The notes under the pieces are model-generated. The model saw only the letters and a program-made list of their open reading frames with translations. It was not told the origin of the DNA and ran no database searches. Shown here one piece after another: positions 6,473 to 17,924 of a stretch of DNA of 20,251 nt. The translations under genes and the position numbers were made by a program. The stretch's first letter is position 1. Each line of letters begins with the position of its first letter. The stretch lies in the IMG/VR virus record IMGVR_UViG_3300042924_004570, positions 1-20,251 of that record; one strand, 5' to 3'. This DNA is from a virus.

Positions 6473-7204
6473 TTAGTCTTCAATAATGTCTTGTATTTCA
6501 AACCAATCCATATCTGCAATGTTTTGACCTTCCGAATATGCCTGATAAAGTCTGCCATATATGAATTTGAATTTTGTAATTACATTTGTTATGTACTGTG
6601 TTTTTATGCCTGTTCTTTCTCTAATCAGGATATAAAGTGCCTTTTTGTTATAGTTTTCTATATTTTCTCGCGCTTTGAATAGATAGAGAACAGAATCTGC
6701 AACTTGTAAGTCTCTTATTTTTGTAAATATAATTGGTAAAAATTGATCCATTATGTCCACAAAAATATCAATAAAATCCTTTTGTTCGTCTACAAACTCA
6801 CTTCGTAGTTGTTCATTTACGATGTTTCTTTCAGCGTCAATAGATTCTATTGTATGTCTCTTCTTGTAAAGATAGTAGTTTTTGTTATTCTCTGCAATAA
6901 GATAATTCTTAGCAACGATTGAGAAATAAGAGAATGCTTTGAATCCACTTTCCCCATCAAATTTACCGAGTTTCTCATGTAGAAAGGCAACAACTTCATG
7001 TTTTACATCTTCGTGTGATACGTCAAAGTTATAGAACTTGAATCGGTGAATCATTATCTCTGCAAGTTTATAGAATGCTGGGTGAATTCTTTTTGTGTAA
7101 ATGATATTTCGTTCAATAGGGTCTTCACAACGGTTATACTCATTTATAGCGTCTTCGGTTTCTTGTGTAAAGTAGACGTTCTGTTTTTTCTTTTTCACTT
7201 CCAT
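6473..7204 (-). CDS. Late-transcription sigma factor, gp55-like
   Basis: The 243-residue product resembles the gp55 family, which replaces the host sigma factor to read phage late promoters together with a sliding clamp. Residues 31-112 match sigma region 2: IERNIIYTKRIHPAFYKLAE, then EDVKHEVVAFLHEKLGKFD, then GFKAFSYFSIVAKNYLIAENN. The aromatic-rich FSYFSIVAKNYLI is the helix that in sigma factors binds core polymerase and the -10 element. A helix-turn-helix-like stretch lies at about 188-215 (KALYILIRERTGIKTQYITN). It is longer than T4 gp55 (185 residues). The ATG overlaps the stop of the preceding gene by one base (TGATG). It sits directly before the structural genes. I did not find a clear T4-type TATAAATA late promoter in the coding direction. 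Confidence 0.85.
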   Translation of the reverse strand: MEVKKKKQNVYFTQETEDAINEYNRCEDPIERNIIYTKRIHPAFYKLAEIMIHRFKFYNFDVSHEDVKHEVVAFLHEKLGKFDGESGFKAFSYFSIVAKNYLIAENNKNYYLYKKRHTIESIDAERNIVNEQLRSEFVDEQKDFIDIFVDIMDQFLPIIFTKIRDLQVADSVLYLFKARENIENYNKKALYILIRERTGIKTQYITNVITKFKFIYGRLYQAYSEGQNIADMDWFEIQDIIED

Positions 7205-16523: not shown

Positions 16524-16609
16524 TAAAAAATAAAAAGGGATAGAAGAACTAATTTGGTCGGTATATGTTGATGATGTTCTCATCACTCTATACAACGTTC
16601 TTCTATCCC
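16524..16609 (-). terminator. Large hairpin terminator after the transglycosylase gene
   Basis: An outer stem of 13 perfect pairs (16597-16609 with 16537-16549, arm GGGATAGAAGAAC on the plus strand) encloses a second stem of five pairs (16589-16593 with 16561-16565) and an inner stem TGATGA/TCATCA with a five-base loop. On the minus strand the outer stem is followed at once by TTTTTATTTTTTATG, a good U-tract. It starts eight bases after the stop codon of the transglycosylase gene. Confidence 0.85.
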
Positions 16610-16616
16610 CCAGTTT

Positions 16617-17105
16617 TTACATCTTTGCTAGATTACGTTCTTCTAGCTCCAAGTTTACCCTCTTTGACACTTTCTTCCAATACTTCTTTGTAGCACGTTT
16701 CATGTGTCCCTTTGGACCTCCATTCCACTTTCTCGCGAGGGTCGCCATGTCCTCTTTTGAAAGTGAATCTAAATTAAGGTCAGGGTTATAAAACTCCTGA
16801 TAAATCCAAAACATCTCCGCAGATTTGCGGGGATTCTTTCGGTCAGCAAGAGTGAACTTCTTATCAAGTCCTTGAATCTTACAGATTCGGTTTACTTCCT
16901 TGACCATAACAGGTTTGATTTGGACAATTCCAACAGACCCGTCTCTTGATTTTGCGTTTGCATTGCCTTTCGACTCAACCCAAACGATAGATGAATACAA
17001 CACGTCTTTTAGAACCTCACCCTTTGAGAAGGGTTTCATTGCGATTGTCACGAAGGCAGTCACAATGATTGAGACGGTTGCAACCCGTTTCCATTTGTTA
17101 GTCAT
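16617..17105 (-). CDS. Lysozyme-like lytic transglycosylase, probable endolysin
   Basis: The 162-residue product has an SLT/goose-type lysozyme-like domain. SSIVWVESKGNANAKSRDGS (38-57) places the catalytic Glu44, followed by VGIVQIKPVMVKEVNRI (58-74), LADRKNPRKSAEMFWIYQEF (86-105) and MATLARKWNGGPKGH (120-134). These are the ES-GN, G-Q-KP and A-WNGG positions of that family, which cuts the glycan strand of peptidoglycan. Residues 8-23 (VATVSIIVTAFVTIAM) form an N-terminal membrane segment, either a signal peptide or a signal-arrest-release anchor. It has its own promoter at 17221-17251, a leader of about 110 bases, AAGAGAGAG before the ATG and a strong terminator. Endolysin is inferred; a virion-bound role is the alternative. 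Confidence 0.82.
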   Translation of the reverse strand: MTNKWKRVATVSIIVTAFVTIAMKPFSKGEVLKDVLYSSIVWVESKGNANAKSRDGSVGIVQIKPVMVKEVNRICKIQGLDKKFTLADRKNPRKSAEMFWIYQEFYNPDLNLDSLSKEDMATLARKWNGGPKGHMKRATKKYWKKVSKRVNLELEERNLAKM

Positions 17106-17146
17106 ATCAACTCTCTCTTTTGTGGATAATATATGTTTTCATTCTT

Positions 17147-17192
17147 TGTGTCTAAAGACACAGGTGTATTACAACAACATTATACCGACCAA
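17147..17192 (-). promoter_or_regulatory. Structured leader of the transglycosylase transcript
   Basis: The leader holds TTGGTCGGTATA (17192-17181, minus strand), exactly complementary to 16554-16565 inside the terminator loop of the same transcript, and a hairpin TGTGTC/GACACA with a four-base loop (17162-17147). GGTATAAT also contains a -10-like TATAAT, without a matching -35 at 17 bases. A regulatory role is inferred. Confidence 0.45.
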
Positions 17193-17220
17193 GTATAAAT
17201 ATCAGTTGTTTTTGTTATTA

Positions 17221-17879: not shown

Positions 17880-17924
17880 TAAGTCCTTAAAAATAAAGGA
17901 CTTACGCCGATGACGTAAGTCCTT
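17880..17924 (-). terminator. Terminator with an alternative overlapping hairpin
   Basis: On the minus strand AAGGACTTACG (17924-17914) and CGTAAGTCCTT (17906-17896) form 11 perfect pairs around a seven-base loop, followed by TATTTTT. The second arm can instead pair with AAGGACTTA (17888-17880), giving nine pairs around the T-rich loop. It lies 24 bases after the stop of the 17948-18364 gene. Confidence 0.72.

Follow-up and report, generated by a model that had tools for sequence, protein, structure and literature searches.

Conserved complementary end elements and a predicted start-codon helix in the lytic transglycosylase mRNA of Flavobacteria-linked phages

The virus sequence analysed here, referred to as the window, comprises 20,251 nucleotides (nt; positions 1 to 20,251 of IMG/VR record IMGVR_UViG_3300042924_004570). 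Its minus strand contains a gene for an SLT-type lytic transglycosylase (positions 17105-16617, 162 amino acids), assigned on the basis of PF01464, an alignment of homologues and an AlphaFold2 model. In the window and in related phages linked to Flavobacteria, the messenger RNA (mRNA) of this gene is probably, although far from certainly, a short, highly structured message under fold-back translational control. A leader loop, L, would pair with a 3' hairpin loop, T, over 10-17 base pairs (bp) and thereby tie the two ends of the mRNA together, and the start-codon region, S, would be clamped by a block within the coding sequence, I. The folded full-length mRNA would be a translation-poor state, and its opening, either by refolding or by 3' trimming that removes T, would lead to production of the enzyme late or only in the right amount. 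The elements L, S, I and T, together with an additional leader element, R, are conserved jointly; L, R and T are jointly absent from two relatives; and both the S:I pairing and a leader hairpin, H2, covary. From these observations we infer that L:T forms in the cell, as well as the direction of control and the coupling of L:T to S:I.

L (TTGGTCGGTATA, 17192-17181, minus strand) and T (TATACCGACCAA, 16565-16554, minus strand) are perfectly complementary over 12 nt, and neither has another exact copy in the window. They are spaced 615 nt apart, with the 162 codons of the gene between them. The first-pass annotation of this DNA had reported an exact 12-base complementarity between non-coding segments on either side of the gene; the coordinates, the complementarity and the non-coding location, in what looks like one transcript, were all borne out. 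First-order Markov simulations of both untranslated regions (UTRs) gave a match of at least 12 nt in 73 of 20,000 runs (~0.4%), a frequency that is suggestive but weak by itself, given how many comparable regions might have drawn attention. Chance is ruled out by the conservation of the core pair among relatives.

The relatives were drawn from IMG/VR and from GTDB genome contigs. Approximately 30 carry the pair, at protein identities of 56-94%, and they include one contig of a Flavobacteriaceae metagenome-assembled genome (MAG; L121). With the window included, 23 leader/3' pairs are distinct and are counted here as distinct loci. They belong to group A, the window's own subgroup (the window and L001-L008), and to the larger group B (L010-L029 and L121). 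The core of L, TGGTCGGTAT (17191-17182), is present in 23/23 leaders and is the longest word common to all of them, and the core of T, ATACCGACCA, its exact reverse complement, is present in 22/23 3' UTRs. The sole exception, L013, carries ATACCGGCCA, a single change that keeps the pairing through G.U, and the core is thus complementary in all 23 distinct loci. Compensatory changes, which had been proposed as a check, were looked for in the relatives, and apart from this one wobble none was found in the core. The sequences flanking both words have diverged strongly between the two groups, the window being identical to group B at 4-12 of 25 positions. L is located 80-89 nt upstream of the ATG in every locus and T is located 28-67 nt past the last sense codon. 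In the 12 contigs examined, the complete pair occurs once per contig (the 3' copy in the L013 contig being the wobble variant), and additional copies of 9-nt words are at about chance level.

L, R and T are all absent from two homologues, L055/L057 and Microcystis phage Mel-JY01 (L041). The 3' end of L055 is an ordinary terminator with a tight loop. L055 is placed beside L008 in the protein tree (support 92/83), which suggests a joint loss of L, R and T, with the caveat that the L055 branch is long. Among the relatives, none was found that keeps the gene and has lost the complementarity on one side (in L073 and L144, which show T, a contig end truncates the locus); the two sites are kept or lost together, and the first-pass proposal withstands the check that it set for itself. 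A mobile cassette or invertible segment was rejected because the orientation of the gene relative to the repeats is constant and because L041 and L055 have the gene without the repeats. The transglycosylase of Mel-JY01 (PP395634.1) and some of its neighbours, namely thymidylate synthase and a 'major paralogous domain' protein, resemble those of the window, and the stated Microcystis host of this phage deserves a check, given that the window's relative L121 is in a Flavobacteriaceae MAG contig.

The same conservation might arise at the level of DNA, where L and T would be two inverted sites recognised by a DNA-binding protein of the phage or its host, such as a gene-looping repressor, and the RNA complementarity a by-product. 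The gene is indeed flanked by inverted repeats, and a core that is invariant in L as well as in T, and that shows no double compensatory change, is what two independent protein sites predict. However, further copies of the word in the phage contigs do not exceed chance, a result that also leaves a phage-wide regulator site unsupported. Moreover, nearly every locus places T in the loop of an RNA hairpin, both words are kept together with covarying RNA elements, and the only core change, in L013, retains a G.U pair in the RNA. DNA sites are therefore an unlikely explanation, albeit one that retains some weight.

The covarying RNA elements include a predicted helix that sequesters the start codon. 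Element S (17105-17076, minus strand) contains the start codon and codons 2-10 and provides the 5' side of this helix, and element I (17002-16971, minus strand; core TATTCATCTATCGTTTGGGTTGAGTC, 16997-16972) provides the 3' side from within the coding sequence. Three helices can form between them, and these include the UG of the start codon. I is identical in 22/23 loci, most of its codons being without synonymous change. Synonymous constraint was expressed as the rate at which groups A and B use the same codon at positions encoding the same amino acid. This rate is 0.97 over codons 1-9 compared with 0.41 expected, and ~0.84 over codons ~37-54 compared with ~0.42 expected, with other codons near expectation. 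An antisense overlapping gene was discarded as the source of the constraint: both L010 and L027 interrupt the open frame on the antisense strand, and the central part of that frame lacks conservation. Against synonymous shuffles in three lineages, 3.5%, 4.5% and 1.8% of the shuffles yielded an S:I duplex as strong, and on the alignment 93% of the cells are paired versus 34-42% in slid controls. The helix has 11 two-sided changes, a number reached by 0/500 shuffles, although some of these changes represent one event on the branch between groups A and B. Within the helix, an A-U pair has become G-C in L008, which of all group A members has diverged the most. The predicted S:I pairing probability is 0.5-1 in most loci, and the equivalents of S and I in L041 and L055 pair less strongly. 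As a separate observation, I can also pair with the next constrained codons, 46-54 (16944-16970 with 16972-16997 in the window, and the equivalent codons 37-54 in L001-L029), in competition with the start-codon helix. These alternative pairings are CGTTTG/CAAACG in group A and ATCGT/ACGAT and GGTTG/CAACC in group B, and the fraction of I so paired is 0.30; a bistable switch in which I alternates between S and codons 46-54 is possible.

Two further conserved elements are located in the leader. Hairpin H2 (17162-17147, minus strand; TGTGTC-TTTA-GACACA) lies between L and R. Its equivalent in group B covaries, with 8 two-sided changes (0/500 shuffles), and H2 is present in the group A folds with altered stems. 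Together, the covariation of S:I and of H2 and the synonymous constraint indicate that this region is under selection as RNA, and on these comparative grounds an RNA-level structure of the transglycosylase mRNA is well supported. Element R (ATTATCCA, 17130-17123, minus strand) is present in 23/23 loci, constantly 25-26 nt upstream of the ATG. The first-pass annotation, which caught the complementary pair, missed both R and the helix inside the gene. No convincing pairing partner of R was found in group A. A mini open reading frame (ORF), ATG GTN NGT TAA, directly precedes R in the 3' arm of H2 (for example in L010, L016 and L025); it is kept in group B and absent from group A. A conserved upstream mini-ORF was rejected on reading by eye, as the start, length and frame differ among loci.

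R could also take part in an activation switch, in which nascent L:R pairing lowers translation until the finished 3' end lets T capture L and free R, such that only complete messages are used. The invariance of R at a fixed distance from the ATG fits such a switch, as do the whole-transcript minimum-energy folds of six group-B loci, in which L pairs with R, and the increase in R access from 0.44 to 0.62 when L is blocked in the nascent leader. Nonetheless, in most of group A, L:R pairing is no stronger than chance (-3 to -6 kcal/mol versus a random mean of -4.3) and the start codon itself is hardly affected by blocking L, which makes the switch a weak proposal for the whole family. We regard it as decidedly unlikely overall; within group B, an activating switch between L:R and L:T is possible.

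As an isolated duplex of 10-17 bp, L:T has a predicted energy of -17 to -23 kcal/mol, and matched L/T pairs outperform permuted pairs on average. Folding of the full transcript, also a check proposed at first pass, was carried out without constraints and pairs L with T in 9/16 group-B loci and in L007, in total 10/23 minimum-energy folds. Several results count against fold-back control. In most group-A loci, the window included, the nested folds leave L in a local hairpin, so there L:T would need to be a pseudoknot or kissing contact; a loop-to-loop contact with both hairpins intact is a pseudoknot, which is beyond the scoring of the folding programs used. This local hairpin, TTATAC (17198-17193, minus strand) with GTATAA (17185-17180), holds L in its loop and is also found in the folds of L001, L002, L004, L006 and L008. 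Because the L:T core is without any compensatory double change, the data do not demonstrate that pairing is the sole constraint on it. Past the core, L:T extends no better than it does with shuffled flanks (Fisher p 0.20), and group-B leaders pair better with the 3' ends of group A than with those of their own loci, so the pairing pattern is not one of clean coevolution; for both reasons coevolution of the pairs flanking the core was judged unconvincing. In silico blocking of L hardly alters the predicted access to the start codon, which leaves the link between L:T and translation unexplained, and S:I is weak in L004, L008 and L010. The invariance on both sides needs an extra constraint, which might be a loop-reading protein, kinetic demands on the loop sequence or a DNA site. 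For 16S ribosomal RNA as a third partner, two Flavobacteriaceae 16S loci gave no 8-nt match containing GGTCGG. End-to-end pairing is still the best reading of two sites that are kept or lost together, and control of the enzyme is plausible. To this extent the first-pass proposal that the pairing could circularise the mRNA or time the making of a lysis enzyme is supported, but its competition with termination is not general.

In the window, T is displayed in the 47-nt loop of a 3' hairpin (16609-16537, minus strand), the 13-bp stem of which pairs GGGATAGAAGAAC with GTTCTTCTATCCC (16609-16597 with 16549-16537). A U-rich tail follows (16536-16525), and this hairpin is plausibly an intrinsic terminator. 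T occupies a 34-48-nt loop of a strong stem in group A, and a GC-rich stem with a U tract is found in the window and most of this group. The group B stem, ACGAGAGA/TCTCTCGT, is usually without a clear U tract, the tract being absent or weak in most of the group. By eye, the stem of L073 appears to be CAGGGA/TCCCTG; the automatic stem finder picked another stem in L073 and in L016. L010 has no such 3' hairpin. In nearly every locus, then, T sits in a hairpin loop, the stem of which varies in sequence from one subgroup to the other around a retained word, and the common feature of the 3' ends is a loop displaying the T word, not termination. The earlier designation of this structure as a terminator is accordingly apt for the window's own subgroup but not for most of group B, where the lack of a clear U tract means that competition of the leader with a terminator stem, also suggested earlier, cannot be the general function. 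The five T bases that had been assigned to a stem were an undercount, since in the local minimum-energy fold of the window 8/12 are paired within the loop (TATA, then CGAC with GTTG); this internal pairing is confined to the window's subgroup.

The L:T duplex could alternatively be a processing or stability device, that is, a double-stranded cut site or an end protector that sets the lifetime of the mRNA rather than controlling initiation. For an RNase III substrate, 10-17 bp is a short duplex. It does link both ends of the message, and the 5'-3' pairing of icaR mRNA yields an RNase III substrate (PMC3868564), but the device leaves the S:I start-codon helix and R unexplained, and we consider it very unlikely. 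Flavobacterium mRNAs are naturally without Shine-Dalgarno sequences and their translation is tuned by start-site structure (PMC6847099); against this background, clamping the start codon makes good sense.

The encoded protein matches PF01464 (SLT) with an E value of 4e-7 and 29.9 bits, above the cut-off of 21.3. Glu44, a catalytic-type residue, is invariant in 27 homologues. The AlphaFold2 model (mean predicted local distance difference test score 89.5) contains an N-terminal hydrophobic helix of ~20 residues followed by a lysozyme-like domain. In the PDB it matches E. coli MltE and leech destabilase best, in each case modestly (E ~1e-3, TM 0.5-0.6). The Pfam match, the conserved Glu44 and the predicted fold thus liken the protein to the MltE-like SLT lytic transglycosylases, from which it differs in being short and single-domain with an N-terminal hydrophobic helix; its solved relatives are only ~15-26% identical. 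The protein presumably serves host lysis, although it could act in another wall-related step instead.

Upstream of the leader, a promoter-like site was read by eye at 17252-17221 (minus strand). It consists of TTTG (17252-17249), 20 nt and TATTATTG (17228-17221), and from it the transcript is expected to start near 17215. The Bacteroidota promoter consensus is TTTG / TAnnTTTG (PMC6847099), and similar boxes lie upstream of the leader in relatives. The TATAAT of the leader was rejected as a sigma-70 -10 box, as group B does not conserve the hexamer and, in the relatives, boxes of the Bacteroidota -33/-7 type lie further upstream. A recurrent motif, GATATTTAT / CTATTTAT, occurs in intergenic regions (17203-17195 and 16518-16510 in the window), with CTATTTAT after the 3' hairpins of relatives, and may serve these phages as a late promoter. 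Elsewhere in the window, a 243-amino-acid ORF (6473-7204) has a sigma-type look by eye, with no Pfam or PHROGs match, and a perfect 13-bp hairpin with a T-rich tail (17896-17924) lies in a 424-nt non-coding stretch upstream of an 87-amino-acid ORF.

We tentatively propose that this mRNA may represent a new class of phage RNA element, in which the UTRs of a lytic-enzyme message pair end to end and its coding sequence carries a clamp on the start codon, and in which the timing of the enzyme is set by how the whole message folds and not by an antisense RNA or a protein regulator. The timing of phage lysis is usually attributed to holins and protein regulators; a whole-message RNA fold would, if true, add a new layer, and would do so in Bacteroidota, a phylum whose mRNAs are naturally without Shine-Dalgarno sequences (PMC6847099). 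It would also extend 5'-3' mRNA pairing beyond toxin-antitoxin systems, as a naturally occurring case that has phylogenetic support and well-defined elements of 10 nt.

No Rfam match reached the gathering score in the window, L008, L025 or L017. The closest known systems are the hok and AapA mRNAs, in which a 5'-3' long-distance interaction keeps the full-length mRNA inert until 3' trimming activates it, and which form metastable hairpins, one of them inside the coding region (PMC6733600, PMC8167048). As in these mRNAs, both ends of the phage message can pair and the start region also pairs within the coding sequence, comparable to aSD2 in aapA3 (PMC6733600, PMC8167048), and the product would be harmful if made too early. 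In contrast to them, the phage product is a 162-amino-acid SLT enzyme and not a small toxic membrane peptide, L does not coincide with the ribosome site but precedes the start codon by 80-89 nt, and neither an antisense RNA nor an overlapping leader ORF is known for the phage mRNA. In icaR of Staphylococcus aureus the 3' motif pairs with the Shine-Dalgarno region, whereas the partner of T is a loop far upstream in the leader, and the phage mRNA has extra conserved elements in the coding region. The timP mRNA resembles the phage message in that elements far upstream of the ribosome site govern its translation, in that case through mutually exclusive folds (PMC11228461). It differs in that its pseudoknot is formed by SL1 and SL3 and its full-length mRNA is active without processing (PMC11228461), whereas the proposed partner of L in the phage mRNA, T, lies beyond the stop codon.
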